Source: Lentimicrobium sp. (GTDB lineage: Bacteria > Bacteroidota > Bacteroidia > Bacteroidales > Lentimicrobiaceae). From it: a stretch of 51,020 nt of DNA. Positions 3,746 to 26,882 of this stretch are shown piece after piece; the stretch's first letter is position 1; each line of letters starts with the position of its first letter. The stretch lies in the NCBI GenBank assembly GCA_024709105.1, contig JANJXJ010000230.1:1-51020 (forward strand). The letters run 5' to 3'. The notes beneath the pieces are model-generated. The model worked only from the letters and a program-made list of their open reading frames with translations. It made no database searches and was not told the DNA's origin. A program made the position numbers and the translations under genes.

Positions 3746-6700
3746 CTACAAACTCAGGTGATTGATTTCAAGGATTAATAGACGGTACTGATGCTGAGCA
3801 TGCAGATGATCCTGCTGTATCTGTGCCGCCTGCGAAAGTGAATTCAGATATTGCATCATGCCAATTTCACCGGCTTTGAATGATTTTTCAGCAGCATCGG
3901 CAATTCCGCTTCCCAGGGCACTGCCTTCGGATTGATAATAGTCCAGCGACTGTCTGGCAGCGGCAATTTCTGTTATGAGACTTGTATACTTACTCTTCAG
4001 GTTTTTAAGCATGAGGCGGTTTTGCTCATCAGCCATCTGAATCTGAATTGACTTATATTTTACCGCAGCCGACCTGGCCGGAAACCAAACAGGAATACCA
4101 AGGCCTGCCTGAAAACCGTTGTAGCGCTGCTGATTCACTCCATTATCCCTGCCTGTAAAGTATTCCAGATGTATATCAGGGAATGCTGCTGAGCGCTCAG
4201 CCTTAAAACTTTGTCTGGCCTTGTCTGTTTGAAAACCGGCCAAATCCCTGTAGTTTCTGAAAGAAGTATCTGCATTCAATACAACGTACTTTTCAAAAGC
4301 CGCCCGATCGGGAATTTTATTTACAAGTGTGTCGCCCGTAATGATCTGCAGCTGCTGCAGCGCTTCATTCAACCGGGTTTTTGCATTTGCCAGACTCACA
4401 TTTACCTCTCTGTATCTCGCCCTGGCGGTAAGCTGATCGAGCGCTGCGGTTTCGCCGGAGGTAAACCTGCGTTCTGCCGATGAGGCCATTTGACCATACA
4501 AGCTGTCGAGCTTTGTATACAAGTCAACCAGCGAGAGTGCATACATCCATTCGGCATAAGCCCGCAGCACTGTGTGCTGAAGCTGATTTTTCCGGAAACC
4601 TGCCTCCCACTCCCTTATTTTCAATTCGGAACCTGCTTCGGCTCTTCTGGCAGCATAAACCCCGGGAAAACTAAGTGATTGCTGAATGCCCCAGATTTTA
4701 AGGGGTTGTCCGCTTTCAGCAATATTATTCTCGTCAAAGTTGTAATAAACTACAGTGTTTTCAGGATTAAATGCCTGCACTTTAAGTTTGCGGGCTGCTT
4801 CAGTTTCAAGTTCGGCCATCTTTACCGCAGGATCAGCCATCATAGCCCTGGTGATTAATGAATCGGGGCTGACTTTAACATGCTGAGCCTGAGCCTTAGA
4901 AACTGAAAATAGTACCAGAATTGGCAGTATCACAGAAATGATTGTACCTTTTTTACGCAGATTCCTGCGTATGCTGCGGGTCTCAAACACATAATAGAGC
5001 ACAGGAAGTACAATCATTGTAAGTAAAGTAGCAGTAATCAGTCCGCCCACCACCACGGTAGCCAGAGGCCTTTGAACCTCTGCACCCGCAGAAGATGAAA
5101 CAGCCATGGGTAAAAATCCCATAGCAGCGGCTGCGGCTGTAAGTAAAACAGGCCTTAATCTTTCTGAAGTGCCTCTCAAAATCAATTCTCTGATGTTTGT
5201 GATTCCCTGATGCCGCAATTCCTTAAAATGTTCGATCAGTACTATACCGTTAAGCACTGCAATTCCAAACAAAGCAATAAAACCGACACCAGCCGAAATG
5301 CTGAATGGCATTCCTCTGAGCCACAACAGCAAGATGCCACCTACTGCCGAAAGCGGAATGGCTGTGTATACCATAAATGCCTCGCGCAGCGATCCAAAGG
5401 CAAGATGCAGAAGTGTGAATATCAGCAGCAAAGCGATGGGAACGGCAATCATCAGACGGTTGCGGGCACTGCGCAGGTTTTGAAACTGACCTCCGTATTC
5501 GATATAGTATCCGGGAGGCAGGTCAATATTCGTTTCAATTATCTTTTTAACATCCCCAACTACCGATTCAAGGTCGCGGTTTCTCACATTTACCCCCACC
5601 ACTACCCTGCGGCGGGTATTGTCGCGCGATATCTTTGCCGGGCCCTTGCTGTAACTAATTTCAGCCAGCTCACTCAATGGGACCTGTCCTCCCTGAGGCA
5701 ATGAAACCCAGGCATTGCGGATGTGTTCTATTTCGCCCCTGAAGGCAGTATCGTACCTGATAACCAGATCGAAACGCTTTTCACCTTCAAAAATTTCACC
5801 TGCCTTAAAACCGGCAAATGCCATAGAAACCACCCGGTTCACCTCATCAACACTCAATCCGTAAACACCTAATTTCTCGCGGTTATACTTAATGTTCATT
5901 TCAGGAAGGCCTGCCGTTTTCTCAACAATAATATCCGATGCTCCGTCAACATTATCAATCAGTGACTTGATGCGCAAAGCCGTTTTATTGAGGTAATCCA
6001 GGTCTTCGCCAAAAATTTTAATAGCTACATCGGCTCTGGTTCCTGTTATCAATTCGTTGAAGCGCATTTCAATGGGTTGTGTAAACTCATAATCAATTCC
6101 GGGAATGATCAAAAGAGCTTCTTTAAACTTATCGGCCAGCTCGTCTTTCGTTTTTGCCGTTACCCATTCTTTTCTGGGTTTAAGTGTAATGATTATATCA
6201 CTTTCTTCCATTGACATGGGATCGGTCGGTACTTCGGCAGCGCCAATGCGGCTTACTACCTGATCTACTTCGGGAAATGTTTTGAGAATCTGTTCAATGC
6301 GGGTGGTTAGTTCAATGGTATTGCTCAGCGTTGTACCAGTTTTGAATACAGGTTGTATTACAAAATCGCCTTCATCGAGGGTGGGTACAAATTCGCCTCC
6401 CATTCTGGAAAAGATAAAAAGACTGCCACTGAGCAGCACAACAGCAATCAGGAGCACCATCTTTTTATGATCAAGTGCCCAGGTTATGGATGGGCGATAA
6501 GCCCGGTTAAGTAAATCAAGTAATCTGGTGCTGATGTTTTTCTTAGATTCAGCAGGCTTCAGAAAAAGGGAAGATACCACCGGAACATAAGTAAAGCCAA
6601 GAATCATGGTACCCAGCAATGCAAATGTAAATACCTGAGCCATCGGCCTGAACATCTTACCCTCAATCCCTGAAAGTGAAAGAATGGGAATAAATACAAT

Positions 6701-8083
6701 GATGATGATCAATTGCCCGAAAATGGCTGAACGGGTTAGTTTGCGGGTACCTTCCAAAGTTATCGCATCAATCCTGAGCTGCTTGTCTTTTCCCTGAAGC
6801 AGAGCCAGCTCTTTGCTGCTTTGCGAAATCTGATAAGCTATAAATTCAACTATGATCACCGCGCCATCTATAATAATTCCAAAGTCAATGGCGCCCAGGC
6901 TCATCAGGTTTGCATCTACATTAAAGAAATACATCATCGAAAGGGCAAACAGCAGGCTTAAAGGAATCACCGATGCAATAACAAGCCCTGAGCGCATATT
7001 TCCGAGCAACAGCACAACCACAAAAATCACGATCAAACAGCCGAGTATAAGGTTTTCGGCAATGGTAAAGGTGGTTTTTCCGATCAGCGCGCTGCGTTCG
7101 AGGAATCCATTAATATGTATTCCATCGGGCAAACTGCCTGAAACTTCTTCCACTCTTTTTTTAACATCGGCAATCACCTGGCTCGAATTGGCGCCTTTGA
7201 GCATCATTACCTGACCCAGCACCTTTTCGCCCTCTCCGTTAGCAGTGATTGACCCAAAGCGGGTGGCATATCCTTCCTGGACTGTTGCCACATCGCTGAT
7301 GCGGATATTTGCACTTCCGCGCCGGGCAACCACAACTGATGCCAGTTCGCTTGTATTTCCGATTAATCCTTCGCTGCGAATAAAATATGACTGGCTTGTT
7401 TTTTCAATGTATCCTCCACCTACAATGCTGTTGTTCATTTCCAGGGCACGGTATACCTCTTCAATGGTGAGATTCAGCGCCCTGAGCTTTTCAGGATTGA
7501 TGGCCACTTCAAATTGTCTTAAATAACCGCCCCAGGTATTTACTTCAACCACACCCGAAATACCCGACAATTGCCTTCTGACAATCCAATCCTGTATGGT
7601 GCGCAGGTCCATGGTGCTGTATTGCCCCTGGTGCGCAGAATCCACTTCGATGATGTACTGGTAAATCTCTCCCAGACCCGTAGAAATCGGCCCCATAAAA
7701 GGAGTGCCAAAACCTTCGGGAATATTTTCCATGGCCGATTGTATGCGCTCGGCAATCAGCTGACGCGGCAGATAGGTCCCCATGTTGTCTTCAAAAACAA
7801 TGGTAACTACCGAAAGTCCAAACTTTGAAACCGATCTTATTTCGACCAGACCGGGCAGATTTGCCATTTCGAGCTCCACCGGATAGGTAATAAATCGCTC
7901 AACATCAAGGGTTGATAAGTTGCGCGATGTTGTAATTACCTGCACCTGATTGTTGGTAACATCCGGCACTGCCCCGATGGGAATATTCAGCAGTGCAAAT
8001 ATTCCAAACCCCGCCATGGTGGCGGTGGCCAGAAGTACAATGAGCTTGTTTTTTAAACTGGATTCAACTATTTTATTTATCAT
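3746..8083 (-). CDS. CzcA-type heavy-metal RND pump fused to a TolC-like outer-membrane factor
   Basis: 1445 residues: a full HME-RND pump (about 1-1040) joined to an outer-membrane efflux domain (about 1068-1445). The fourth transmembrane segment carries D400-F-G-x3-D406-G-A with E413, the pattern of divalent-cation pumps (Zn/Co/Cd/Ni) rather than the Cu/Ag branch. The CusA methionine-site region also reads FVIQP instead of containing Met. The downstream part has the helical hairpins and GIPVWFPARSAAV motif of TolC-like factors. Between the two lies a hydrophobic segment ending AQAQ at about 1044-1067 that resembles a signal peptide. Such fusions are known in Bacteroidota. The gene follows the CDF transporter by 52 bases and precedes the adaptor, so pump, channel and adaptor come from two genes. 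Confidence 0.94.
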   Translation of the reverse strand: MINKIVESSLKNKLIVLLATATMAGFGIFALLNIPIGAVPDVTNNQVQVITTSRNLSTLDVERFITYPVELEMANLPGLVEIRSVSKFGLSVVTIVFEDNMGTYLPRQLIAERIQSAMENIPEGFGTPFMGPISTGLGEIYQYIIEVDSAHQGQYSTMDLRTIQDWIVRRQLSGISGVVEVNTWGGYLRQFEVAINPEKLRALNLTIEEVYRALEMNNSIVGGGYIEKTSQSYFIRSEGLIGNTSELASVVVARRGSANIRISDVATVQEGYATRFGSITANGEGEKVLGQVMMLKGANSSQVIADVKKRVEEVSGSLPDGIHINGFLERSALIGKTTFTIAENLILGCLIVIFVVVLLLGNMRSGLVIASVIPLSLLFALSMMYFFNVDANLMSLGAIDFGIIIDGAVIIVEFIAYQISQSSKELALLQGKDKQLRIDAITLEGTRKLTRSAIFGQLIIIIVFIPILSLSGIEGKMFRPMAQVFTFALLGTMILGFTYVPVVSSLFLKPAESKKNISTRLLDLLNRAYRPSITWALDHKKMVLLIAVVLLSGSLFIFSRMGGEFVPTLDEGDFVIQPVFKTGTTLSNTIELTTRIEQILKTFPEVDQVVSRIGAAEVPTDPMSMEESDIIITLKPRKEWVTAKTKDELADKFKEALLIIPGIDYEFTQPIEMRFNELITGTRADVAIKIFGEDLDYLNKTALRIKSLIDNVDGASDIIVEKTAGLPEMNIKYNREKLGVYGLSVDEVNRVVSMAFAGFKAGEIFEGEKRFDLVIRYDTAFRGEIEHIRNAWVSLPQGGQVPLSELAEISYSKGPAKISRDNTRRRVVVGVNVRNRDLESVVGDVKKIIETNIDLPPGYYIEYGGQFQNLRSARNRLMIAVPIALLLIFTLLHLAFGSLREAFMVYTAIPLSAVGGILLLWLRGMPFSISAGVGFIALFGIAVLNGIVLIEHFKELRHQGITNIRELILRGTSERLRPVLLTAAAAAMGFLPMAVSSSAGAEVQRPLATVVVGGLITATLLTMIVLPVLYYVFETRSIRRNLRKKGTIISVILPILVLFSVSKAQAQHVKVSPDSLITRAMMADPAVKMAELETEAARKLKVQAFNPENTVVYYNFDENNIAESGQPLKIWGIQQSLSFPGVYAARRAEAGSELKIREWEAGFRKNQLQHTVLRAYAEWMYALSLVDLYTKLDSLYGQMASSAERRFTSGETAALDQLTARARYREVNVSLANAKTRLNEALQQLQIITGDTLVNKIPDRAAFEKYVVLNADTSFRNYRDLAGFQTDKARQSFKAERSAAFPDIHLEYFTGRDNGVNQQRYNGFQAGLGIPVWFPARSAAVKYKSIQIQMADEQNRLMLKNLKSKYTSLITEIAAARQSLDYYQSEGSALGSGIADAAEKSFKAGEIGMMQYLNSLSQAAQIQQDHLHAQHQYRLLILEINHLSL

Positions 8084-8135
8084 ATTTGAACGGTTAAAGA
8101 ACTAAAATTACGCTTTTTCTTTTGCTGGAATTCGG

Positions 8136-9062
8136 TTAATTCTGCATTTTTGAAGGAGACGACTGTTCATTAAATGGCTCAATATGGATACCAGTATGTG
8201 TTTGAGCTCCAAAAGCTACCCTTAATGCCTCTTCAATTCTTGATGCAATCTGGTGTGAATCTTCAACATTTAACTCCTTGTCTACCTTCACATGAACCTC
8301 TATTGCAACTATATTACCGATTTTTCGTGTTTTCAGTTTATGGAAACCCATTACTCCAACGGTATTGGTAATGATGTTAATAATTTCATTTTCTGTTTTT
8401 TCGGGCAGCGAGGTCTCGAGCAGTTCACTTATACTGGGTTTTGCAATTTCCCAGGCAACTTTAGCTATAAAAAAGCTAACTACTATACCTGCAATCGGAT
8501 CCAGAATGCGCCATTTTTCGCCCAGGAATATTGCTCCAGAAATACCAAGTGCTGTCCCAATTGACGAAAATGCATCAGAACGATGATGCCAGGCATTGGC
8601 AACTACAGCCTGACTATCAACCTTTTTACCCACGCCAACTGTATACCAGTATAAAATTTCTTTAACAACAATCGAAACAATTGCAGCAAAAAGCGCAGCT
8701 TTGCCAGGCTGTACCAGTATTTCGCCATTTATTGAACTCAAAATTTTCTGAAATCCTGACCAAAAAATACCGGCAGCTACAATCACCAGCGCAAAGCTTA
8801 TTAGCATAGTCGCGAAGGTTTCATATTTCCCATGACCATATTTATGGTCAGAATCAACCCCTCTGCCTGAGATTCTTATAAATGCCAAAACAATAATATC
8901 TGTTGCAAAATCAGAAAGAGAGTGGACCCCGTCTGCAACCATTGCACCGCTTTTGCTGGTAATCCCGGCAATTATTTTAAAAATAGTTAAGAACAGGTTT
9001 ACAAAAAAACCAACCCAGGTCACCTTTTTGATTTCTCTTGTTCGGGACAATGTTTGTTCCAT
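8136..9062 (-). CDS. Cation diffusion facilitator (CDF) family transporter
   Basis: Proton-coupled exporter of divalent metal ions from the cytoplasm. Six hydrophobic segments are followed by a C-terminal cytoplasmic domain (ETSLPEKTENEI onward) of the FieF/YiiP type. Metal-site residues are visible in TM2 (H47-x3-D51 in ADGVHSLSD) and TM5 (H159-x3-D163 in AWHHRSD). The HKYGHGKYET signature is at about 73-82. A His/Asp site of this kind favours zinc-like ions, though selectivity cannot be fixed from sequence alone. It sits between the b561 cytochrome and the RND pump and would feed periplasmic metal to the RND system. Confidence 0.94.
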   Translation of the reverse strand: MEQTLSRTREIKKVTWVGFFVNLFLTIFKIIAGITSKSGAMVADGVHSLSDFATDIIVLAFIRISGRGVDSDHKYGHGKYETFATMLISFALVIVAAGIFWSGFQKILSSINGEILVQPGKAALFAAIVSIVVKEILYWYTVGVGKKVDSQAVVANAWHHRSDAFSSIGTALGISGAIFLGEKWRILDPIAGIVVSFFIAKVAWEIAKPSISELLETSLPEKTENEIINIITNTVGVMGFHKLKTRKIGNIVAIEVHVKVDKELNVEDSHQIASRIEEALRVAFGAQTHTGIHIEPFNEQSSPSKMQN

Positions 9063-9133
9063 AATGCTTTTCAGGTTTGATTTATCTGGAAATCAGAAAC
9101 TGGTATAAGAAGTATAAAATGCAGGATGATCTT

Positions 9134-9847
9134 TTAATCATCATCATTTTCGGATTGTTCGTGTCCGGTTTTTTCGTTGTGTCTGTCACTGTTACCACTC
9201 AATGGAGGCAGCGAAAATGCCAGAAAAAAAACTATAACTGCCAGGCTTATCCATAAAACACCATAAGTTTTTTGAACAAGATTTGGCCGGGCATCTTCAG
9301 TATCAACTGCTTTATAACCGTTAAAAATTGAGAAAAACGAACCAGATTTGCCATGAATCAATAAATCAGTAAATATCCCGGCCAGGTGAAAAATAACAAG
9401 AACCAGAAAAATATTGGCAAAAACTTCGTGTGCTTCTTCAGGGAAATAAAAACCAGCAGATGTTGTATTTTGTGATTCATTCAAATAAAGTATATAACCG
9501 GATGCCGCAGTTAAAAAACCAACAATCATTATTGCCAGCATTACAACAGATGCCAGAGGATTATGACCAGCATAAATGTTCTGCTTTGAAAAAATTGACT
9601 TTACAAACGCTGTCTGGTTTCTGAGAGAAATCGGGAAATCTCTGAAACGAGAGTACCTTGGACCGATAATACCGTAAAATATTCTCATCACAGCCAGGAC
9701 ACCCACCAGAGCTCCGAATGCAAAATGAAACTGCCTGAAATTATCATTCTCACCCAGCAGATATGCACTAATAAACCCTAAAGCGAGCAGCCAGTGGAAA
9801 GCTCTTGTCGGCCAGGCCCAGATCATTTTCTTTTGTGTGGTAGTCAT
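9134..9847 (-). CDS. Cytochrome b561-type membrane protein
   Basis: Di-haem membrane cytochrome b of the bacterial b561 / hydrogenase-cytb fold. Four to five hydrophobic segments hold candidate haem ligands in TRAFHW, FRQFHFAFG and VIFHLAG. The C-terminal tail (DRHNEKTGHEQSENDDD) is rich in acidic residues and His and probably faces the cytoplasm. It starts 12 bases after the sensor kinase and lies upstream of the CDF gene, so it seems to be part of the metal-response unit. Its role there is not obvious: it could move electrons from the quinone pool to a periplasmic partner. No other redox partner is encoded in this unit. Confidence 0.85.
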   Translation of the reverse strand: MTTTQKKMIWAWPTRAFHWLLALGFISAYLLGENDNFRQFHFAFGALVGVLAVMRIFYGIIGPRYSRFRDFPISLRNQTAFVKSIFSKQNIYAGHNPLASVVMLAIMIVGFLTAASGYILYLNESQNTTSAGFYFPEEAHEVFANIFLVLVIFHLAGIFTDLLIHGKSGSFFSIFNGYKAVDTEDARPNLVQKTYGVLWISLAVIVFFLAFSLPPLSGNSDRHNEKTGHEQSENDDD

Positions 9848-12037: not shown

Positions 12038-13666
12038 TCAGATTGCTTTCGAAATCTGTGCAAATACCCTGTGATTCAAGAATCTGTAATCGTACAATGC
12101 TTCGTAGAAAATCGAAAGCGATATCTTTCGGGCAAAGCGATATTGAGCCGACAATTCTCCTGAATGCTGCATTTGAGTAAAGTCGGTACCAGAAAAGTTG
12201 TAATTACTGAATTTATATGATAAAGATGTGTTGAGTTTTCCCTTCAGAAATAATTTTGACAAACCGGCATATGCGGAAGCGCCTTGCAGATAAGGTGTTA
12301 CAATGTACAAACCACCTGCAGATACTGACACTTTTACAAAAGGTATCTCACTGTAATTTAAATAGATATTAATATTTTCGGAAGGCTTGATATCATTTGT
12401 TCTGTTCCTGTACCCACCTTGCAAGCCAACAGTAAACCTTTTCAGAGGCATTAAATTTATATTCAGAAGGAAACCCTGACTGGTTTCCTGATCAAGCAAC
12501 TGATCGAGGAAATTCTTGTAGGTTTCGTAATAGATTATATTTTTACGGCTGCTGTAGGCCAAAGATGCTGACCCGAGTGACTTATAACGGTATCTCAGGG
12601 AAAGATAGAGATTAGTAAATTCAGGTGAAAGGCTATTTTCCTGAGAGTCTATCCTGTAAAGATCAAATTCTGCCGAACCAAAAAAACCAAAATCCCGTGA
12701 AATTTGCTGATTATGCTGCAAGTAAGTAAACCTACGGTCAACCTTGCCGGCATTATTTTGCTGCACAAACGCAATGCTTGTATTCTGCCTGCTCTTTGAT
12801 CTGACTGGAGAATAGTTTAAAAATGCTCCATATTGAAATAACTCAGCATTAAAACTATAATCTGTGTAATCTGGCCGTGAGCCTGCAAGAATGCCTGTTG
12901 TAAACGATCCGAACTTATATTCTGCCTGTATTCCATCAACTGCACCAAGGTTTGCAACTTTAGGATTTATTTTCCTGCCGATTTTAATGGTTAGATTATT
13001 CCCGGGTTCATATACAGCTGCAAGTGAATAAATTTTCAATCCATTAAAAATATTATCCTGTATATCGTTCCATTGACCGTTTCTGTGAGAAAAGCTCAAT
13101 TGTGTTTCGGCCGAGAACTTAGAATCAGCAATATTTTTTACAGAAAGACTAAAATTATACTTCATTCGCTGAGCGTTCAACCCTTCAGCGCCTGTAATTA
13201 CAGAGTAAGAAGTAATGGAAACCCGTCCTTTAACAACCTGTCCAGTCTTGTTTCTGGCAGCTGTAAGTCCGGTGGTATCATTCAAAATCACCTTTTCCGT
13301 ATTATTGACTTCCATAGGTTTTTCAGCTGGTATTTCAGCTTTTTCCGGTTTTTTGTTTGAAATGGCATTCCCGTTCTTGCTCTTTACTGAGAATTTCATA
13401 CCCACCGTTGCCTGGTATCCCTTAACTGGTGTGCAACTGCAGGAAACGCTTGATAAACTTTTTACCACACAAACGGGTATAACTTTTCCATTTTCGCTGG
13501 TATACAAGGTATCACCCGGTGATATTCCAAGAGTATTATCAAAACGAACATATACATGCTGAGAAGTAATATAAGTAACCGATCCGGTTTTTTCAAATTG
13601 CGCCTGCACAACCATTTGAAAAACCAGTAAAAAGAAAATTACACTTACCCATTGTTTTTTAAGCAT
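12038..13666 (-). CDS. Outer-membrane beta-barrel protein of the 48-haem cytochrome operon
   Basis: A signal peptide (to about residue 23, ending VQAQ) is followed by a small domain (about 24-95) with TLGISPGDTLY and a CSC motif, a charged Lys/Glu/Pro linker (about 97-125), and about 390 residues of alternating beta strands typical of an outer-membrane barrel. I do not recognise a named family. It starts 2 bases after the 28-haem cytochrome stop codon, with a strong AGGAGG ribosome site, and is the last gene of the run. By analogy with MtrB/PioB-type conduits it could be the porin sheath of an electron conduit. That role is inferred from context and not from sequence similarity. The C-terminus (ISKAI) lacks the usual terminal aromatic residue. 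Confidence 0.8.
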   Translation of the reverse strand: MLKKQWVSVIFFLLVFQMVVQAQFEKTGSVTYITSQHVYVRFDNTLGISPGDTLYTSENGKVIPVCVVKSLSSVSCSCTPVKGYQATVGMKFSVKSKNGNAISNKKPEKAEIPAEKPMEVNNTEKVILNDTTGLTAARNKTGQVVKGRVSITSYSVITGAEGLNAQRMKYNFSLSVKNIADSKFSAETQLSFSHRNGQWNDIQDNIFNGLKIYSLAAVYEPGNNLTIKIGRKINPKVANLGAVDGIQAEYKFGSFTTGILAGSRPDYTDYSFNAELFQYGAFLNYSPVRSKSRQNTSIAFVQQNNAGKVDRRFTYLQHNQQISRDFGFFGSAEFDLYRIDSQENSLSPEFTNLYLSLRYRYKSLGSASLAYSSRKNIIYYETYKNFLDQLLDQETSQGFLLNINLMPLKRFTVGLQGGYRNRTNDIKPSENINIYLNYSEIPFVKVSVSAGGLYIVTPYLQGASAYAGLSKLFLKGKLNTSLSYKFSNYNFSGTDFTQMQHSGELSAQYRFARKISLSIFYEALYDYRFLNHRVFAQISKAI

Positions 13667-13668
13667 AA

Positions 13669-15852
13669 CTACCTCCTGCTGTTGAATTTTACCCCGGACC
13701 TCATTCTCTGCATAGAATTACCATTGGGATGACAACTGAGGCAGGCCTGATTGTTATAGCTGTACCCTGATATTCCGTTATGTTCATCGTCCATGTCACC
13801 TTGTTCATGACATCCAAAACAAGAAAAAACTGCATAATTTGAAGGATTTGCATGACAATCGGCGCAGGTATTCCATTCTCCTCTGTGCTCCCCTGAATAA
13901 ATCGGGAAGTATTGTGCATCATGATTAAATGTAGAAGGCAGCCAGCTGTTCTCTGTGTGGCAGATCGTACATTCTGTCGGAAACTGTGCCTGCTGATGAG
14001 AGGGATTGGTGGTTTGGTTATAATTACTGATATGGCATCCTGCACAGGTATTGGGTGTTGTGTTGTAGTTGCCATTATGACAACCTGAGCAGTTATTGGC
14101 TATGATTGCATGAGCCCCGTTAAGCACATAATAATTGTTATGAACAGGAAATGCTGCCGGTGACCAACCCGCTTCGGTGGTATGACAACTTGCACAGGTA
14201 TTTGGAAGAGACAATGCTGTATGGCTGGGATTGGCGGCTTGCTGATAATCAACAGTATGACAATCGCTGCAAACTGTTGTTGTTCCGGAGTATCCCGCTG
14301 AATGGCAGCTGATACAATCTGCTCCCGTGTGGGCTCCTGTCAATGGAAAGGCTGTATTGTTGTGGTTGAATCCTCCTGTAGCATCTCCTGTTGGATGGCA
14401 GGCTTTACATGCTTCGCTCTGATATAGATAGCCCCCAATGCCCTGATGTTCATCATCTGTATCTGCCTGATTATGTTCATGACAATTTATACAACTGAAT
14501 ATTTTATAGTCAGAAGGATTGGTGTGACAATCAGCACAATTATTCCATTCACCGAGATGCTTACCTGAGTAGATCGGGAAATATGCGCCATCATGGTCAA
14601 ATGTTGCAGGTTGCCATGCCACTTCGGTATGGCAGGTGATGCATTCCGTTGAAAATTGTGCCTGCTGATGCGATGGTGAAGTAGTTTGGTTGTAATCATT
14701 AATGTGACAACCAGCACATGTATTGGGAGTATTATTGTAGTTTCCATTGTGGCATGTGTTGCACTGCGATGCTTGTGAGGCATGCGCTCCTTTAAGTTCA
14801 TAATATTGGTTATGAATACTAAAAGTCGCAGGAGCCCAGCCCGGTTGGGTTGTATGACAATCCTGACAAGTGTTCGGGATATTCAGCACGCGATGGTCCG
14901 GATTAACCGAGTTGTTAAAATCAGGCTCATGGCAACTAAAACAATCTGAAGAAGTATTGCCTGTCCCATTTTTATGGCAATCAACACAAGTAGCTGTGGA
15001 ATGAGCACCGGTTAATGAAAAACCTGTGGAATTATGATTAAAACTACCTTCTCCCGATCCATTCGGATGGCAACCGTAACAGGCTATACTTTCATAAACA
15101 TACCCCTGAACTCCTGTGTGTTCATCGTTCATATCGCCCATATTGTGCTCATGGCAAGTGGTACATGAAAATATGGTATAATCCGATGCGTTGGTATGGC
15201 AATCTGCACAGTCGTTCCAAACTCCGTTGTGTTCACCTGAGTAAATAGGAAAATAGAGCTGATCGTGCGAACTGAATTCTTTCCATGAATATCCGTTATA
15301 GAAATGGCAATCGGTACATTGGGTTGAATACCCTGCTGCTGCGTGATTGGGACTTGTGGTTGAATTATAATCATCCAAATGACAGTCGGAACAGTTTATG
15401 CCCAATGGCTCAAATAAAAGATCAGATCCCGATGGGTGACAATCCTGACAAGCGGCCACTGTATGGGCACCCATAAGCGGAAAACGGGTTTTATTGTGTA
15501 ATCCGATTATATCAGCAACAAGCCACGATTCAGGAGAATGGCATCGTCCGCAATCTGTTCCGGTTGTGTTTTGATGGATATCGGTATGGCAATCAAAACA
15601 ATCTGAACTGGTTCCCGCAAAAATCAGTGAAACATGGCAGGATCTGCAATTTACACGCTGATGTTCACCTGCCAATACAAAACGGGTTGTATCATGGTCA
15701 AATGAGATACTATCAGGATTCACGCTCCATCCTTCGGTGTTATGGCAATCGTCGCATGAAGTTTTAAAATTTTCGCCATGCGGATTACTTGCGATAAACC
15801 TTAAAGAAGCGAACAAGATGGCTAAGCCGATCATTAGTGACAATCTTCGCAT
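13669..15852 (-). CDS. 28-haem c-type cytochrome with tandem nine-haem modules
   Basis: 727 residues with an N-terminal signal sequence and 28 CxxCH haem c attachment motifs. No lipobox or membrane anchor follows, so it is probably soluble in the periplasm or exported. From about residue 180 the chain is built of repeats of about 221-224 residues. Each contains FPIYSGEHxGxWNxCADCH, then FSCxxCHEH, a DDEHxGIxGY segment, ACxxCHPxG, FxLTGAH, and later TCAGCHIxxYNQTT. Distal His residues in GAH, FNHN and SxH are candidate sixth ligands. Its start overlaps the last 19 bases of the 20-haem gene and has an AGGGAGGA ribosome site. Expected role: long-range electron wire next to the barrel protein. 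Acceptor unknown. Confidence 0.93.
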   Translation of the reverse strand: MRRLSLMIGLAILFASLRFIASNPHGENFKTSCDDCHNTEGWSVNPDSISFDHDTTRFVLAGEHQRVNCRSCHVSLIFAGTSSDCFDCHTDIHQNTTGTDCGRCHSPESWLVADIIGLHNKTRFPLMGAHTVAACQDCHPSGSDLLFEPLGINCSDCHLDDYNSTTSPNHAAAGYSTQCTDCHFYNGYSWKEFSSHDQLYFPIYSGEHNGVWNDCADCHTNASDYTIFSCTTCHEHNMGDMNDEHTGVQGYVYESIACYGCHPNGSGEGSFNHNSTGFSLTGAHSTATCVDCHKNGTGNTSSDCFSCHEPDFNNSVNPDHRVLNIPNTCQDCHTTQPGWAPATFSIHNQYYELKGAHASQASQCNTCHNGNYNNTPNTCAGCHINDYNQTTSPSHQQAQFSTECITCHTEVAWQPATFDHDGAYFPIYSGKHLGEWNNCADCHTNPSDYKIFSCINCHEHNQADTDDEHQGIGGYLYQSEACKACHPTGDATGGFNHNNTAFPLTGAHTGADCISCHSAGYSGTTTVCSDCHTVDYQQAANPSHTALSLPNTCASCHTTEAGWSPAAFPVHNNYYVLNGAHAIIANNCSGCHNGNYNTTPNTCAGCHISNYNQTTNPSHQQAQFPTECTICHTENSWLPSTFNHDAQYFPIYSGEHRGEWNTCADCHANPSNYAVFSCFGCHEQGDMDDEHNGISGYSYNNQACLSCHPNGNSMQRMRSGVKFNSRR
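13671..13677 (-). promoter_or_regulatory. Strong Shine-Dalgarno site for the barrel gene
   Basis: AGGAGGT on the minus strand, with the AGG core 5 bases before the ATG at 13666 and overlapping the TAG stop of the 28-haem cytochrome. Bacteroidota genes usually lack such sites, so it supports this start and points to coupled, high translation. Confidence 0.65.
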
Positions 15853-17435
15853 CTGATCCTCCCTGTTTTATATAAAACAAAATAGTTGTTATTTTTTAAT
15901 TCAACCGGATGGCATTTGCTGCAGCTTACCTTGCTGTGTTTGCCGTCAAGTTTGAAACGCGCCGTATTATGATCAAACAGTAAAGTTTTCCAGCCGTCGG
16001 GTGAATGACATTTGGAACATTCACTTTTTTCGTTCTCCTGAAACTGCCCCAAATGGATATCGGTATGACAAGCCTGGCAAGTTGAATCCGGAATTTTGAA
16101 CAGAACCTGTGTTCCACTTTCCTGTTGTTTTGGATGACAACCTGAACATTGTACAGAAAGATGTTTTCCTGTCAATTTAAAACTAGTTTCGTTATGATCA
16201 AAACCAATCTTTGCCCAGGATGAAACATTATGACATTTTGTGCAGGTTTTTCCCGGATAAAATCGTGAATCGAGATCGTTAGCATGTATATCCTGATGAC
16301 AATCGGAACATGCCTGCATCGGGATTTTAAACTGCCATCTGTCCGATTTTTTATGACATGCAAAACAAGGCGTTGCCTCATGTGCGCCTTCCAGCCTGAA
16401 TGGCAACTCATTATGCCTTTCTATTGTGAAAGTTGAATTATCAAACCCATCCTCATGATGACAATCTTTACAATCAGGTGCTGGTTGATCTGGCTTTATA
16501 AAATCACCTTTATGATAGTCGGAGTGGCAGTCAGCACAGCGATTATGCTTTAATTGGGCTGTAATACTGGTTTTATGACAGGATTTGCAATCTGTATTTA
16601 TGTGTTTGCCTTTGAGCGGAAAACCGGTTTGATTGTGGTCAAAGCCAGCCAACGATTTTACATTTCTGAAAGATGTTTCAACATGGCATTTTGAACAATC
16701 TGAGCCAAACTTGTTATCGTGCGGATCGGTATGGCAATTTTTGCAGGATTCAAATTTAATCCCTTTAAATTGTGTGAATTCTTTGTTGTTCTGAATCTTA
16801 TTTGGGTGACATTTGGCACAATCTGCATCCTGATGTTTTCCTTTGAGCGGAAATTTGGTTTTATTATGTTCAAAACCTGAAGCTGGTTTAAATTTTTCAT
16901 TATTGTGGCAATTGGCACAATCGTTTGATAAAGTTCCCTGATGAATATCTTCATGGCAACTCAGGCACCTGGTATCCAAACCCATGTAAGTCTGCTTCTT
17001 CTTCCTTATGGCAGGATCTTTTATGTTGGATGGCTTATGACAATCGGAACACTCAGCCAATTTGTGTGCACCTTCAAGGGTGTAACCAGTTTCGGAATGA
17101 TTAAATTTCGACTTATCAAAACGTACAATCTGATATTTTCTACCATGATGATCGCTGTGACATAAAACACAACTCTTCCTGTAAATACGGGCGGAAGCAT
17201 GGTAGCCCTTTTTCGCATCAATCCTCAATTTTAAATCTTTATGGCAATCAAGACACTTGTCATTTGAAACCTTTGCCCCGGCAGTATGGCATTTTGTACA
17301 GTTTGACAATCCTTCAAGAAATGCGTGAACTTCAGCAAGCTCACCAGGCGAAAGCTGTGCACTTACCCCAACAGGGAAAGCAATAAGGATTAACAGGTAC
17401 AACAAGTATTTGAAGGTCTTCATAAGACAAATCAT
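15834..17435 (-). CDS. 20-haem c-type cytochrome
   Basis: 533 residues with a cleavable signal peptide (ending GVSAQ) and 20 CxxCH motifs, the last (CEDCH) being the final five residues of the protein. Recurrent FxHNxTxFPLKGKH and DxHxGxF segments before CxxCH pairs are typical of cytochrome c3/c7-like multihaem chains. A longer start at 17435 overlaps the stop of the oxidoreductase gene (TAATG). The ATG at 17423 would give the same signal peptide, so either is possible. The 3' end overlaps the 28-haem gene by 19 bases. It probably carries electrons from the membrane flavoprotein/cytochrome b to the 28-haem protein. Confidence 0.93.
   Translation of the reverse strand: MICLMKTFKYLLYLLILIAFPVGVSAQLSPGELAEVHAFLEGLSNCTKCHTAGAKVSNDKCLDCHKDLKLRIDAKKGYHASARIYRKSCVLCHSDHHGRKYQIVRFDKSKFNHSETGYTLEGAHKLAECSDCHKPSNIKDPAIRKKKQTYMGLDTRCLSCHEDIHQGTLSNDCANCHNNEKFKPASGFEHNKTKFPLKGKHQDADCAKCHPNKIQNNKEFTQFKGIKFESCKNCHTDPHDNKFGSDCSKCHVETSFRNVKSLAGFDHNQTGFPLKGKHINTDCKSCHKTSITAQLKHNRCADCHSDYHKGDFIKPDQPAPDCKDCHHEDGFDNSTFTIERHNELPFRLEGAHEATPCFACHKKSDRWQFKIPMQACSDCHQDIHANDLDSRFYPGKTCTKCHNVSSWAKIGFDHNETSFKLTGKHLSVQCSGCHPKQQESGTQVLFKIPDSTCQACHTDIHLGQFQENEKSECSKCHSPDGWKTLLFDHNTARFKLDGKHSKVSCSKCHPVELKNNNYFVLYKTGRIRCEDCH
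15857..15864 (-). promoter_or_regulatory. Shine-Dalgarno site inside the 20-haem gene for the 28-haem gene
   Basis: AGGGAGGA on the minus strand ends 4 bases before the ATG at 15852, within the last codons of the 20-haem gene. It fixes the start of the 28-haem cytochrome and fits translational coupling across the 19-base overlap. Confidence 0.6.
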
Positions 17436-18766
17436 TAATGTTTCATTACAGCTTCACCAAACTTTTTGGTTATCTGAATGCCAGATTTTAGCAGGAATTG
17501 AGTTGGAAGTTCACCCCCGGCAAAAATAAAAACCAGGTCATTGGACATTTCGAAAGTTTTCCCTTCTCTGGAATCAGAAACCGTTACAAATTCTTTCTCT
17601 ATGCTCAGCAGTTGGGTATTTAGGCGGAGATCAACTTTACCTGCACTGGCAGCAGAGAGAATTGCTTCACTGTTCCGGGGCTTCAGGCGACTGAAAGCCT
17701 CTCCGCGATATGACAGCATTACATTATTTTTTTCTGAAAGCAACAGTGCTGCTTCAATTGCGGAATCGCCCCCTCCTACTACAACTATATTTCTATTGTT
17801 AATCAATTCCGGTTCAAGCAAACGATATGCAACTTTTTCGCTCAACTCACCAGGTATTCCCAACTTACGGGGTGTGCCCCGCCTACCTATTGCCAACAGT
17901 ACTTTGCAGGAACTATAAGTTCTTCCATCAGCCGTTTCAACTTGAAACCAGGATTCTTTTTTTTCAATGCTTTCTACCTTGCAATGTTCCTGAACCGCCA
18001 GATCATTTTTCGAAAGAACATCTGTCCAGAGTTTCAGTAACTCTGCTTTACTGGTTTCAAACATCTTTACTTTGCCATAAAGAGGCAACTCAACCGAGGA
18101 TGTCATTACCACCTTCGACCTGGGAAAAGTAAACACAGTACCTCCCAGTGATTCCTGTTCAAGTGCAATGGCCTTTAAGCGCAGTTTTTTAGCTGTGAGC
18201 AATGCCGATATTCCAGCAGGCCCTGCTCCCACAATAATCAGATCATAGTCTGCATTATGTTGAACGGGCAGATTTTTTGCCAGATTTTCTACTGCCTGCC
18301 TGCCCTGTTCAATAGCATTTTTAATAAGCCCCATTCCGCCTAGCTCACCAGCAATAAAAATTCCAGGCACATTGGTTTCAAAATTCTGGCTTACATGTGG
18401 CAATTCAACCCCCCTTTTCTCGGTTCCCATGCACAAGGTTATGGCCTGGGTGGGGCAGGCATGAAAACATGCACCATGTCCGACACACTGCGATGCATTG
18501 ATGGTTTTGGCTTTGCCATTAACAATTCCAATGATGTCTTTTTCGGGACATGCAGCAATGCAAGCCCCTGTTCGAATACAACTGTTTTCATCTATTACCG
18601 GATAAAGCGAAACCGGTTCATACAGACCCTCGAGTTTGGCCTTTTCGATTTTTGCAAGAGTTTTACCCGACTTCTTTTTCTGACTTAAGAAATACCATAC
18701 AATAATAACGGCGCAGATTAAAGCCGTTATTCCATAAATAATAATATTTTCAAGGAGAGTTTCCAT
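17435..18766 (-). CDS. Membrane-anchored Fe-S / FAD-dependent NAD(P) oxidoreductase with permuted domain order
   Basis: A single N-terminal membrane helix (about 6-26) is followed by a ferredoxin-like domain with CIRTGACIAACP and CVGHGACFHACP, then a segment NVPGIFIAGELGGMG..NAIEQGRQA, then the FAD Rossmann motif VGAGPAG and the NAD(P) Rossmann motif VGGGDSA. In ordinary thioredoxin-reductase-like proteins the VPGIFxAGE segment is at the C-terminus. Here it precedes the first Rossmann fold and the C-terminus stops after the sheet that normally leads to it. Each ferredoxin motif lacks the second Cys (Thr or His instead). I chose the ATG at 18766, one base after the cytochrome b stop, over the longer frame to 18790. 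Likely role: moves electrons between NAD(P)H and the cytochrome chain. Confidence 0.88.
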   Translation of the reverse strand: METLLENIIIYGITALICAVIIVWYFLSQKKKSGKTLAKIEKAKLEGLYEPVSLYPVIDENSCIRTGACIAACPEKDIIGIVNGKAKTINASQCVGHGACFHACPTQAITLCMGTEKRGVELPHVSQNFETNVPGIFIAGELGGMGLIKNAIEQGRQAVENLAKNLPVQHNADYDLIIVGAGPAGISALLTAKKLRLKAIALEQESLGGTVFTFPRSKVVMTSSVELPLYGKVKMFETSKAELLKLWTDVLSKNDLAVQEHCKVESIEKKESWFQVETADGRTYSSCKVLLAIGRRGTPRKLGIPGELSEKVAYRLLEPELINNRNIVVVGGGDSAIEAALLLSEKNNVMLSYRGEAFSRLKPRNSEAILSAASAGKVDLRLNTQLLSIEKEFVTVSDSREGKTFEMSNDLVFIFAGGELPTQFLLKSGIQITKKFGEAVMKH

Positions 18767-18767
18767 A

Positions 18768-19628
18768 TTATAAAATCCAGCGGTAACCAAAATACAATGT
18801 AACTGCCACGTGAATGATCATTATCACCAGCATAATGATTGCAAACGGCAGATGCGCAACATGCCAGTAGCGAAATAAATCCTGCATCAGCTGCAGGCGG
18901 TTTATTTTTCGGTTCAAGGAAAATTCGTTCTTAATAAGACGAAATACCTCTGATAATTCTTTTCGGGTAAGCCCTGAATTTCTCAGCTTTTGTTTTAATT
19001 TATTCAAAATCTTCCGGTCGTGAAACCAGGAGGTAAAGATGTTCCCTGCTTTATCAGAAATTTTTCCACTCTGTAATTGAACAGAGTCAAAAACCATTTG
19101 ATATTCTGCCTCATCAAGAGAGTATGAAGTTCCAATTATTTCTGCCAGATTTTGCCTTAAGTCCCTTACTTCTGTAAGTGTAAGTTCCCGGCCCTCTATG
19201 GTGCGCGGGATCTGCAGGTAAATAAATCTGCCTACTATTCCACTTAAAAATACTGCAACCATACTCCAAAAACTAATGGACACCAGCCCTCCAAATTTGA
19301 ATGAAGTATGAAAAAGCACTAAAAAAGGGCCCAAAGTGCAAAGAAAGATGTGTATCTCGAGCCAGTGCTTTACTTGTCCCAGCCTGTGCAGAGAGCGCAT
19401 GCGCTTCCTCATCATATAGCCCGAAACACCCATCAGCATAAATAAAGAACCGATAACACCATATCCATGCCCCAGGTCCCCGCCGGGTTTTAGCAACTGG
19501 TAAGCATGATGAAAAAAACGCTCCTCAATGGGTGTTATGTAATAGCTGTAGCCATAATAAGCTATGTAAGCTACCGGTAGTATTACAAGAATTCCCAGCA
19601 GCAGGAAATAGAGTTTTCTTAAAAGCAT
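18768..19628 (-). CDS. Membrane cytochrome b-like protein
   Basis: 286 residues with about five hydrophobic segments. His residues sit in pairs suited to two b-haems: HHAYQLL, GHGYG, HWLEIHIF, LFHTSFKFGG and, near the C-terminus, YWHVAHL and MIIHVAV. A long cytoplasmic or periplasmic loop of mostly charged helices (about 150-240) separates the helix bundle. No named family is recognised with certainty. It is first in the cytochrome operon and ends one base before the flavoprotein start, so the two probably form a membrane complex linking the quinone pool or NAD(P)H to the haem chain. Confidence 0.8.
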   Translation of the reverse strand: MLLRKLYFLLLGILVILPVAYIAYYGYSYYITPIEERFFHHAYQLLKPGGDLGHGYGVIGSLFMLMGVSGYMMRKRMRSLHRLGQVKHWLEIHIFLCTLGPFLVLFHTSFKFGGLVSISFWSMVAVFLSGIVGRFIYLQIPRTIEGRELTLTEVRDLRQNLAEIIGTSYSLDEAEYQMVFDSVQLQSGKISDKAGNIFTSWFHDRKILNKLKQKLRNSGLTRKELSEVFRLIKNEFSLNRKINRLQLMQDLFRYWHVAHLPFAIIMLVIMIIHVAVTLYFGYRWIL

Positions 19629-19674
19629 AAAGAGATTTTACAGCAAAAACATCTTTTTTTGCCTGCGGAATATA

Positions 19675-19682
19675 CAAAGATA
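19675..19682 (-). promoter_or_regulatory. Candidate -7 element for the multihaem operon
   Basis: TATCTTTG on the minus strand fits the Bacteroidota TAnnTTTG consensus and lies 46 bases before the cytochrome b start. A matching TTG at the -33 distance is not evident, so regulation by an activator is possible. The rest of 19629-19990 (362 bases) shows no convincing gene or repeat. Confidence 0.45.
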
Positions 19683-19990
19683 ATGTACAATTTTTAAAAA
19701 TGTTTCTGTAACCCTCTATTTAAAAGGATTCCAGATAAGAATGATAAAGAAATCAGCTGGTAAAATAAAACCAACAGGAAAGATCAACTGCGTTTATTTT
19801 TATCAGTAAATTAAATGAGCGCTAGATTTGAATGTTATATAAAACGAGCATTATCTGAAAATTTCATAAAGCCATCAGGGACAAAAAGTAATTTATGGAT
19901 TATGGATAACCCTATTTTTCGCCTGGTAAACCAAAGCAAAAGCCTGAAGATGTTTAAAACAAAAACACCTGTTATTGCCGTAAGGTTTTT

Positions 19991-20692
19991 TTATTGCTTT
20001 TGCACCTCTGCACCGGTTATTATTACTTCATAAGTATAGCCTGCGCCATAATCGGCATTGGTTTCAACTTTGCCTTTTACAACAACAACATCTCCTACCT
20101 TAACTTCCTGATTTGTTGTTACAGTAAGGTCATATTTTCCTTCAAATTCAGTACCATCCTGAATATGCAGCCAGTTTCTGTCCATGATACCGGGATTATA
20201 ATGTACCACTTTGCCTGTTACCGTTACTTCTTTATCCCTTAAATTTTGTGAATTACTGTAAACGGTTTGGATTGAAACACTCCCTTCAACCGGCTCTATA
20301 TTAAGTTCGTACTTCCTTACCGATGCCTTTGCCGGCGTGCCGCCTGAGAATTCATCACGGTTCATGGAAAAGGTTTCAGGCGAATCAGATATCTGGTCAA
20401 CAAAATAAATTACATCAAAAACTTTTCCCAATTCAGGACTCTTAAACTGATCCATACGGTAGGGATTGATATAAAAGAGATTTTCTCCGTCCTTAACTTC
20501 CATTTTGGCAACAGCAAGCCACTTCAGCTCATTGTTTTCCAACACCTTCAGATATGTATATTTGGATGTTTGAACAGATTCAACAACAGTAACAGCAAAC
20601 ACACCGGGTTGAAGGTTTGTGTTAGAATTTTGATTGTTACGGTTACACGAAAGAGCAACAACAGTCAAAATCAAGAGGAAAAGATTTTTCAT
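19991..20692 (-). CDS. Lipoprotein with NrfJ-like domain and OB-fold
   Basis: The start at 20692 gives a signal peptide and lipobox (VVALSC). The first half has the pattern SKYTYLKVLENNELKWLAV..VKDGE, seen in small NrfJ-like domains found near c-type cytochromes. The second half (RDKEVTVTGKVV onward, with NWLHIQDGT and GAGYTYEV) is an OB-fold like those annotated as tRNA-anticodon/nucleic-acid-binding-like. Its location outside the cytoplasm makes nucleic-acid binding unlikely. It lies upstream of the multihaem operon in the same orientation, but its own promoter and a 362-base gap suggest separate transcription. A role in cytochrome assembly or haem protein interaction is inferred only from family context. 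Confidence 0.75.
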   Translation of the reverse strand: MKNLFLLILTVVALSCNRNNQNSNTNLQPGVFAVTVVESVQTSKYTYLKVLENNELKWLAVAKMEVKDGENLFYINPYRMDQFKSPELGKVFDVIYFVDQISDSPETFSMNRDEFSGGTPAKASVRKYELNIEPVEGSVSIQTVYSNSQNLRDKEVTVTGKVVHYNPGIMDRNWLHIQDGTEFEGKYDLTVTTNQEVKVGDVVVVKGKVETNADYGAGYTYEVIITGAEVQKQ

Positions 20693-20712
20693 TTTATTAA
20701 GAAAGGTTTCCG

Positions 20713-20742
20713 CAAAGGTAAATATTACTTTAGCAGAATCAA
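20713..20742 (-). promoter_or_regulatory. Bacteroidota-type promoter of the NrfJ/OB-fold lipoprotein
   Basis: Minus-strand TACCTTTG at 20713-20720 with TTG at 20740-20742, spacer 19 bases. This matches the TTG-N19-TAnnTTTG architecture closely and lies about 20 bases before the chosen start codon, supporting that start. Confidence 0.6.
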
Positions 20743-21140
20743 CAAAGGCAATATAGCTGAAATGTATTCTAAACCACTTCCGGTTCTTCAAACCATTACT
20801 TAATTTTCTTAAGATTAATATCATTAATATCCAACGACCTCTATCGTAATCTCCACGAGCTTCCGGGACAAGCGATTTCTGGTCTCAAATGCACAGGCCC
20901 CAGGGCTGGCAATTGCGAATTTGCGATTTGCGATTTCAGATTTAAGCCCGATCTTAAATTATTAACACGATAAGCTGATCGCAAACCCAACCTTAGAAGG
21001 CTGCTTATGCAGATGCTGGAAAGGGCTGAACACTGCCCAGCTGAGGGAGAAACGCCACAAGTTCTGCTGTAATTCACTAAAGCAGGTGCAGCGCACCCCA
21101 TAGCCTCCGCCGTTGGCATGGTAGCGCTAACATGGCAAAA

Positions 21141-25637: not shown

Positions 25638-25673
25638 TAGTCTGATTTTTTGCAAACCAAACCCACTTACTCA

Positions 25674-26882
25674 ATGAAAAAACTTTTCTTTTTAATCTTG
25701 CTTTTAACGGCAGGTCTTGCTGCCTTTGCACAGCAAACCGATAGTCTTTCAAATCAATATTCCAATACCGCCGAAAATATGCTCAGCAGCAAACCCGGGC
25801 TTGTTATCGGGGGCTATGGCGAAATCCATTACAATCAGCCTTTAAAGGAAAACAAATTCGATCTGGGTACCCTCGATGCCCACCGTTTAGTTATGTTCCT
25901 GGGCTATAACTTCTCCGGTAAAACACAATTTGTTTCTGAAATTGAATTTGAATACGCCAATGAAATCTGGATAGAGCAAATGTTTATCCAGCATAAACTC
26001 AATAATTACATTAATTTCAGGGCTGGTATTTTGCTGATTCCCATGGGCATCATCAACGAATACCACGAACCAACCACCTTTAACGGAGTGGAACGGCCAA
26101 TTATTGACAACAGGATTGCCCCGGCTACCTGGCGGGAAATCGGGCTGGGATTTCAGGGCAATATTCTACAGGCCAAAACCAGATACCAACTTTACATAGT
26201 GAATGGATTTAATGGTTACGATGGCAGCAAGGCCATGTTCTCGGGCAGCAAAGCCCTGCGCGAAGGCCGTCAGAAAGGTTCGAAGGCTTATATTCAGAAA
26301 CCTGCGGTAACCGGAAAGCTTGAGTTTTACGGTATTAAAAATCTGAATCTGGGGCTGTCGGGCTATGTTGGTGATTCTCACAGCCGCCTGTATTCAGGGC
26401 TGGACAAAGGCGATGAAAGTCTTGTGCAACGTGCCGACTCTTCGGTGGTGGGCATTTCCATGCTCGGTGCCGATGCCCGCTACAACCTGGCCGGCTTCAG
26501 ATTTACCGGTCAGTTGTATTACGTTGGCATCTCCAATACCGCACAGTACAATCAATTTACAGCCATCAACGGAAAAAACAACGATCTGGGCAGTGCCATG
26601 ATTGGCTATTATGCCGAAATAGGATACAATGTTTTTAAGCCTTTTGCAGGAATTAAAACAGAGCTGATGCCTTTTGTGAGGTACGAAGCCTACAACACAC
26701 ATCAAAAAACTGAGGGCAATCTGGCAGCCAATAACTCCTATCAGAATACCATCATCACCACCGGCCTCACTTACTCAATCACCAAAGGTGCAGTGCTTAA
26801 GGCCGACCTTCAGTTTTTAAAATCTGAAGCCGAAACCAAATACAATAAAGTCTTCAATGCCGGATTTGGCATCATGTTCTGA
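25674..26882 (+). CDS. Outer-membrane porin (OprO/OprP-like)
   Basis: 402 residues with a signal peptide (ending AAFAQ) and a barrel with the features of phosphate-selective-type porins of Bacteroidota: GGYGEIHYN at the mature N-terminus, AHRLVMFLGYNFSGKTQF, IEFEYANEIWIEQMFIQH and a C-terminal FNAGFGIMF strand. Substrate unknown. The ATG at 25674 is preferred over an in-frame TTG at 25650. It is followed after 11 bases by the FMN-binding protein gene, suggesting that the pore and the periplasmic flavoprotein work together. Confidence 0.88.
   Translation: MKKLFFLILLLTAGLAAFAQQTDSLSNQYSNTAENMLSSKPGLVIGGYGEIHYNQPLKENKFDLGTLDAHRLVMFLGYNFSGKTQFVSEIEFEYANEIWIEQMFIQHKLNNYINFRAGILLIPMGIINEYHEPTTFNGVERPIIDNRIAPATWREIGLGFQGNILQAKTRYQLYIVNGFNGYDGSKAMFSGSKALREGRQKGSKAYIQKPAVTGKLEFYGIKNLNLGLSGYVGDSHSRLYSGLDKGDESLVQRADSSVVGISMLGADARYNLAGFRFTGQLYYVGISNTAQYNQFTAINGKNNDLGSAMIGYYAEIGYNVFKPFAGIKTELMPFVRYEAYNTHQKTEGNLAANNSYQNTIITTGLTYSITKGAVLKADLQFLKSEAETKYNKVFNAGFGIMF

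Follow-up and report, generated by a model that had tools for sequence, protein, structure and literature searches.

We present here a cluster of five genes in a stretch of 51,020 nucleotides from Lentimicrobium sp. (Bacteroidota; assembly GCA_024709105.1, contig JANJXJ010000230.1, positions 1 to 51,020, hereafter the window), which is a candidate for an operon conducting electrons to the cell surface. The genes occupy the minus strand between 19628 and 12038, and their open reading frames (ORFs) encode a cytochrome b-like protein (18768-19628, 286 amino acids (aa)), a flavoprotein with iron-sulphur (Fe-S), flavin adenine dinucleotide (FAD) and NAD(P) parts (17435-18790, 451 aa), a c-type cytochrome with 20 haem sites (15834-17435, 533 aa), a second c-type cytochrome with 28 (13669-15852, 727 aa) and an outer-membrane barrel (12038-13666, 542 aa). 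An earlier sequence-only reading of the window described them as five genes that overlap or nearly touch, and the ORF list bears this out, with neighbours overlapping or 2 bases apart. On the minus strand upstream of the cluster (19629-19760) we noted TATCTTTG, which we take to resemble the Bacteroidota promoter element TAnnTTTG.

Based on a genome search, the best 80 of 391 relatives were taken as named loci, and the record titles among them that name a group all refer to Bacteroidota or its subgroups. On the whole, all five genes are present on 53 of the 80 loci; for 26 of the remaining 27 the sequence is too short for a decision. Of the 43 loci in which the flavoprotein gene is flanked by more than 1 kb on its upstream side and by 9.5 kb or more on its downstream side, 42 have the complete set. 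The median gaps between neighbouring genes in the 53 complete loci are -13, 13, -22 and 9 bases, an arrangement consistent with a single operon. The set also survives rearrangement: in 11 of 12 more distant loci (L136-L146 and L150, flavoprotein 37-48% identical) the barrel gene stands directly before the flavoprotein gene and at least two multihaem genes stand before the barrel, showing that the parts stay together in an altered order with the flavoprotein last. Seven of these 11 have all five genes in the stretch, and the cytochrome b gene is cut by the edge in L146 and L150 and lies just beyond it in L138 and L140; the twelfth, L136 (genome G349), starts at a contig end. In L147 and L148 a frame of about 200 aa is found between cytochrome b and flavoprotein.

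The wider sampling covers genomes of Bacteroidota (60 relatives, 295 of the class and 296 of the phylum), so the set may also occur outside this phylum. Searched separately in the 60 relatives, flavoprotein and barrel are detected in the same 11 genomes, on one contig in nine of them and on separate contigs in G015 and G017. In the phylum searches the best five candidates per genome were scored for the flavoprotein, four for the barrel and eight for cytochrome b, so that misses are possible; the flavoprotein is found in 28 of the 296 genomes, the barrel profile in 27, the cytochrome b profile in 30, and all three in 26. Flavoprotein and barrel thus occur together in 26 genomes, the flavoprotein only in two, the barrel only in one, and neither in 267 (Fisher p 7e-34, with relatedness ignored). 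Both genomes of the second kind have their own detail: in G278, missed by the profile, a barrel is found by BLAST, and in G349 a truncated frame that by eye resembles a barrel opens the contig immediately upstream, the cytochrome b being on a different contig. At E<=1e-60 the cytochrome b profile matches all 28 flavoprotein genomes plus G199, and G188 has a weak partial match (E 2.6e-9). The barrel-only genome is actually G199, in which a 130-aa C-terminal barrel fragment adjoins a cytochrome b gene matched over 2-258 of 289 with two stops inside the match, and no flavoprotein or multihaem frame is present in 16 kb. These remnants (L158, G199:C56:38000-54000, with the truncated cytochrome b beside the barrel fragment at 8017-9136) suggest that the locus decayed as a whole. 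The sequence-only reading, which took the cluster for a candidate electron conduit, had named as refuting it a barrel found mostly without these cytochromes; this outcome was not observed, as by these searches the barrel occurs without the flavoprotein in one of 296 genomes, and that locus seems decayed.

The 48 haem sites counted in the earlier reading are confirmed as 20 + 28 CxxCH motifs, and they are far from chance, since 2000 shuffles of each protein give means of 0.24 and 0.33 and maxima of only 3 and 4. Neither window protein has a CxxCK motif; outside CxxCH, the 28-haem protein has no cysteine and the 20-haem protein has one (C3). Each begins with one hydrophobic stretch resembling a signal peptide, and by eye we agree with the earlier reading that neither has a lipobox. 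No match at E 1e-3 was obtained for either in a sequence search of the Protein Data Bank (PDB). Two matches to CcsA-type cytochrome c assembly genes are found in the genome, so that the haem sites could be filled; ResB gave no match in the genome search.

The comparison of haem numbers separates the two clearly. The first cytochrome, defined as the first uncut ORF with at least eight CxxCH on the strand of the flavoprotein, has 20 motifs in 80 of 90 copies, 23 in six, and 17, 16, 11 and 10 in one each, at least two of the copies deviating from 20 (L024 and L087) stemming from sequence that is broken or contains N. In the second, the number varies between 10 and 73 haems. Its numbers follow 10+3n in 57 of 73 copies by CxxCH alone and in 72 of 73 when CX3CH and CX4CH sites are counted, the only exception then being L056 with 30 haems. 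This set consists of 72 of 73 extracted rows and the window copy (L087 being omitted for its N runs, and cytochromes cut by contig ends being left out); L025/L131, L026/L132 and L054/L134 are the same genomes twice and other rows are related, so a binomial p on the rule would be unfair. The rule points to growth by triheme modules, and each haem goes with 24.9 aa of protein length (72 rows, r 0.999), about 75 aa per module. In the window protein a head with the signal peptide and the first seven haems (15247..15852, minus strand) has a haem spacing whose first six values (36, 16, 16, 34, 19 and 25) are exact in 42 of 72 relatives. It is followed on the same strand by a 9-haem unit of 224 aa, equal to three triheme modules (14575..15246), by a second 9-haem unit with 62% protein and 63% DNA identity to it (13903..14574), and by a final triheme module with the C-terminus (13669..13902); no tandem repeats at the DNA level were reported in 13600-17500. 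The number of modules appears to change fast, as it differs between close relatives: flavoproteins 88-89% identical accompany second cytochromes with 28 versus 40 and with 61 versus 73 haems. The four pairs with flavoprotein identity above 90% have equal haem numbers, three of them being the same genome twice. The coefficients of variation in length are 0.022 (barrel), 0.038 (flavoprotein) and 0.446 (second cytochrome). Besides these two cytochromes, an extra 13-haem gene follows the barrel in L035, L089 and L095, and L041 and L047 have a third multihaem gene within the operon, ahead of the barrel.

The flavoprotein agrees with its earlier description as an Fe-S/FAD oxidoreductase with a membrane anchor, having a single N-terminal hydrophobic helix (aa 16-34) and, by Pfam, ferredoxin and FAD/NAD(P) domains. 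The TTG start of its ORF is probably not the real one; because M9 is kept in 89% of 101 copies, the true start would lie near 18766. Its two ferredoxin-type motifs, CxxTxxCxxxCP and CxxHxxCxxxCP (18455..18580, minus strand), are both without the usual second cysteine, and their six cysteines and H105 are conserved at 100% in the 101 copies, T74 being variable. Such motifs may hold a [3Fe-4S] or a differently ligated [4Fe-4S] cluster. The FAD-binding motif GAGPAG lies at 18212..18229 and the NAD(P)-binding stretch GGGDSA, followed by R362, R368 and K370, at 17681..17776, both on the minus strand; the latter stretch and its three basic residues are invariant in the 101 copies, and we take these residues to resemble the NADPH-phosphate site of thioredoxin reductases. 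The nearest solved relatives are YpdA-type reductases (PDB 7a76, E 4e-25), which like thioredoxin reductase share the FAD and NAD(P)H domains. Unlike in these enzymes, a membrane helix and a two-motif ferredoxin domain are added, and the score against TIGR04018 is 153.6 bits, below the cut-off of 339.9. Moreover, the cysteine of the YpdA motif GGGPCG, which is functional in the YpdA thiol reaction, is replaced by alanine here and in 96% of the 101 copies, which makes a YpdA-like thiol reaction unlikely.

The cytochrome b-like protein has four hydrophobic stretches above the hydropathy threshold and a fifth seen by eye (about aa 57-73). Six histidines near the ends of these stretches (H54, H93, H107, H256, H259 and H273) are kept at 97-100% in 92 aligned copies, and two haems b across the membrane would fit them. 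As to kinship with cytochrome b561/NarI-like proteins, in Pfam the protein matches DUF4405 (E 6e-5, 23.9 bits, cut-off 26.7) and Ni_hydr_CYTB (E 0.01, 16.0 bits, cut-off 30.1), and DUF4405 is matched at E<=0.01 by 4 of 16 family members. Among the five labels of the sequence-only reading, those of flavoprotein, two cytochromes and barrel stand, and that of cytochrome b is the weaker one, these scores being below threshold.

For the barrel, the AlphaFold2 model (54 sequences; mean predicted local distance difference test (pLDDT) 84.0, predicted template modelling score (pTM) 0.68) has an N-terminal beta domain (aa 25-95), a low-confidence linker (aa 99-140) and a barrel of 22 strands (aa 144-541), by our own count from the listed structural elements. 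A barrel is therefore predicted, as the earlier reading had assumed; that structure prediction might show none was the second outcome it had named as refuting. Searching with this model by Foldseek gives 318 matches at E<=0.001, and the 50 listed are all outer-membrane pores (porins, channels and pilus ushers), with the top TM-scores among those listed for the FimD usher or translocation pore (0.44/0.50). The window barrel has no Pfam or NCBIfam match, and the 54 barrels together have two stray single-member matches. Two matches of the barrel profile to the PDB (E 0.25 and 0.79) were taken as chance. Because the listed fold matches are all to pores and a sequence family match is missing, the predicted barrel is described as wide and of no recognised family. 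A genome search with the MtrB-family domain PF11854 gave 0 of 60, and its controls were equally silent, so this search is uninformative.

A barrel encoded beside multihaem c-type cytochromes is what characterises the porin-cytochrome conduits, and it is found here. In this respect the operon is like Pcc of Geobacter (OmbB-OmaB-OmcB), where a barrel is encoded beside two multihaem cytochromes thought to cross the outer membrane. However, the cytochromes of Pcc, as given in the available part of PMC4245776, have 8 haems in the periplasm and 12 at the outer membrane, as against 20 and 10+3n here, and the Bacteroidota operon also includes the Fe-S/FAD/NAD(P) protein and cytochrome b. MtrCAB of Shewanella likewise combines a barrel with multihaem cytochromes for the same supposed task. 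It differs, as does PioAB, in the barrel family, none of the 54 Bacteroidota barrels matching PF11854 at E<=0.01; in strand number, with 22 predicted here and 26 in MtrB; and in the cytochromes, those of the window scoring 42.2 and 25.7 bits against the DmsE/MtrA decahaem family TIGR03508 (cut-off 192.2). The triheme nanowire cytochromes (TIGR04257), of the GSU1996 type, share c7-like triheme modules in a row, but the scores of the window cytochromes (15.9 and 18.7 bits) stay below the cut-off of 40, and the second Bacteroidota cytochrome has 10 to 73 haems inside a conserved operon.

The kind of conduit is not new in this phylum, as two papers report undescribed Bacteroidetes porin-cytochrome clusters. 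In the available text of PMC6344600, putative clusters unlike known ones are described in "a number of Bacteroidetes" of Trout Bog, and a 51-haem protein is assigned to a putative cluster on an unbinned contig; in that of PMC8258643, six multihaem cytochromes and a barrel, matching hypothetical proteins only, are reported from a Bacteroidetes bin whose enrichment on an anode was 39-fold. Compared by description, these barrels and cytochromes lack homology to known conduits and may be identical or related to ours, although the consulted portions name no flavoprotein partner. Other sources, likewise within the parts available, treat porin-cytochrome clusters including Ignavibacterium without mention of Bacteroidetes (PMC4245776), porin families (PMC7399161), and "several possible pathways for EET" (extracellular electron transfer) in a Prolixibacteraceae bin (PMC10504345); the main text of the survey PMC11475568, as available, has no word starting "Bacteroid", and such a system is not mentioned in the available texts of PMC12545173 and PMC13374861. 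In the literature searched we met no outer-membrane electron conduit characterised from Bacteroidota. Neither was a description of the five-part set, the constant of 20 haems or the 10+3n rule found there, in sources seen in part and with supplements and most subscription papers outside the scope, so an earlier description may exist. The claim of the sequence-only reading that no described system joins the five parts is thus not contradicted by this literature, although the general kind had already been reported. What our analysis adds to that reading is the fixed 20-haem partner, the 10+3n rule and the two three-cysteine Fe-S motifs. Judged from its sequences, the operon is a conserved conduit-like system, porin-cytochrome in kind, that falls outside those known families we tested and is undescribed as far as we searched.

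On balance, we favour the interpretation that this Bacteroidota operon encodes a dedicated route for electrons between the cytoplasm and the surface of the cell, leading outward, and the conduit proposed in the earlier reading is supported to this extent. Building on the five parts and their joint conservation, on the predicted barrel, on the haem-number rules and on the conserved cofactor residues, we infer the cofactor loading, the direction and order of steps, the cytochrome in the barrel and the acceptor as follows. The membrane-anchored flavoprotein would take electrons from NAD(P)H, probably NADPH, and pass them via FAD to two Fe-S clusters. These clusters would reduce cytochrome b, whose haems b would move the electrons across the inner membrane to its periplasmic side. 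There the 20-haem cytochrome of fixed length would span the periplasm, and the 22-strand barrel would insulate the outer-membrane passage for the second cytochrome, a modular wire of 10 to 73 haems that would deliver electrons to an acceptor outside the cell, for example Fe(III), humic matter, an electrode or a further cell. The roles of the two wires are suggested by their lengths, since a part spanning a set distance should keep its length and a part ending freely need not: the constant 20-haem protein would bridge the periplasm and the variable one would reach outward. In multihaem wires a haem accounts for about 1 nm, so 73 haems would exceed a normal periplasm. A bolder version, which we put forward tentatively as possible rather than probable, is a self-contained NAD(P)H-to-outside conduit bypassing the quinone pool, in which a length-locked 20-haem periplasmic wire is joined to a fast-evolving surface wire growing in triheme steps (10 to 73 haems), the latter setting the outside reach.

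Several observations weigh against this interpretation. No Mtr protein is named among the 50 Foldseek matches listed, and the absence of PF11854 from the barrels points the same way. The predicted model of the 28-haem protein (pLDDT 53.7, pTM 0.24) supports neither a shape nor a fit to the barrel, we saw neither a lipid anchor nor a secretion signal by which the second cytochrome might be kept on the surface, and one member of its family has a CxxCK motif. The cytochrome b assignment is the weaker for its sub-threshold matches, and the role of NAD(P)H as donor is read from motifs, so that quinol could take its place. As for the set itself, L036, the sole exception among the 43 loci, has cytochrome b and flavoprotein with no multihaem gene or barrel on the stretch, and in G353 cytochrome b lies about 15 kb from the other parts. 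The occurrence is patchy, with 6 of 18 other genomes of the genus carrying the set and cytochrome b in only 4 of 295 class genomes, the source genome included, so the set is dispensable.

The entry point of the electrons is where another explanation has most to offer, namely that menaquinol feeds the conduit at cytochrome b, in the manner of CymA, ImcH or CbcL, with the flavoprotein acting as a regulator or side entry. Quinol-linked b cytochromes have histidines near both helix ends, and the conserved histidines of our protein are so placed. Known conduits are also fed by quinol oxidases, and the available part of PMC6295460 gives five CbcL-type homologues and one ImcH-type in Bacteroidetes. 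However, of the 29 genomes that match cytochrome b strongly, 28 have the flavoprotein, and the one without it is the decayed G199; the FAD/NAD(P) glycines of the flavoprotein and R362, R368 and K370 are at 100% in the 101 copies, and the NapC/NrfH domain PF03264 is absent from the Pfam matches of the five proteins (E<=0.1). One PF03264 match is found elsewhere in the same genome. We therefore hold a menaquinol feed to be rather unlikely. An inward flow, in which electrons from Fe(II), partner cells or a cathode are taken in to make NAD(P)H, seems more doubtful still: such pathways can be bidirectional according to the available text of PMC8258643, but with the typical donors outside the cell NAD(P)+ reduction runs uphill, and among the five genes we saw no coupling module. 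The named carriers of the operon, which we assume to be heterotrophs, count against it as well.

The function of the barrel leaves room for two more explanations, both of which we consider quite improbable. One sees in it an export pore for the long cytochrome, which would then be a free extracellular wire; the freely variable length of this cytochrome and the FimD usher as top TM-score match among those listed (0.44/0.50) would agree with it, but the structural matches are weak, near 10% identity, ordinary porins do as well by E-value, and no plug- or chaperone-like protein is present among the five genes. The other takes the whole for a periplasmic redox or detoxification device with an ordinary substrate porin. 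It would make sense of the metal-efflux-like (by eye) and two-component genes adjoining the operon in the window, were these neighbours not so rarely kept: homologues at E<1e-10 of the histidine kinase, the response regulator and the cytochrome b561 are found on 6, 3 and 4 of the 80 named loci (efflux genes uncounted). The 48 haem sites without any CxxCK speak against it too. Compared with these explanations, an outward path of the porin-cytochrome kind is still favoured.

Bacteroidota are major polymer degraders. The flavoprotein occurs, though patchily, in 28 of the 296 phylum genomes. If the proposed path operates, these organisms could dispose of electrons outside the cell straight from NAD(P)H, and models of their metabolism in anoxic sediments and lakes would change. 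The 10+3n series would offer a natural length ladder of molecular wires, usable for relating conduction and reach to haem number. Tests look possible, since three of the 80 loci bear the names of strains and no metagenome label: Labilibaculum euxinus A4, Labilibaculum sp. K2S and Mangrovibacterium lignilyticum BM_7.

The neighbouring genes in the window were considered as well. The histidine kinase, response regulator and cytochrome b561 gene were rejected as parts of the operon (homologue counts above). At 19991-20824 there is a lipoprotein-like protein with a weak match to an oligonucleotide/oligosaccharide-binding (OB) fold, relatives of which occur on 20 of the 80 named loci, in both orientations and on both sides; it was rejected as a sixth part, its family being present in 25 of 60 relatives, many without the cassette, which makes it merely a frequent neighbour. 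A second haem cluster (37953-43776) consists of a protein with five CxxCH, a cytochrome b561 (PF01292), a protein with seven CxxCH and by eye a C-terminal hydrophobic stretch, a small cytochrome c and a DUF5777 barrel (PF19089, E 1.4e-71), with a Crp-type regulator on the opposite strand. This cluster may be a separate electron-transfer system. At 25650-27460 a 410-aa protein, porin-like by eye and without Pfam match, adjoins a small FMN_bind protein (PF04205, E 1.5e-6), in which SGAT is seen by eye and which may be a flavinylated carrier. In addition, 3746-8083 is a single ORF of 1445 aa, in which by eye a CusA/CzcA-like efflux pump is followed by a TolC-like part.

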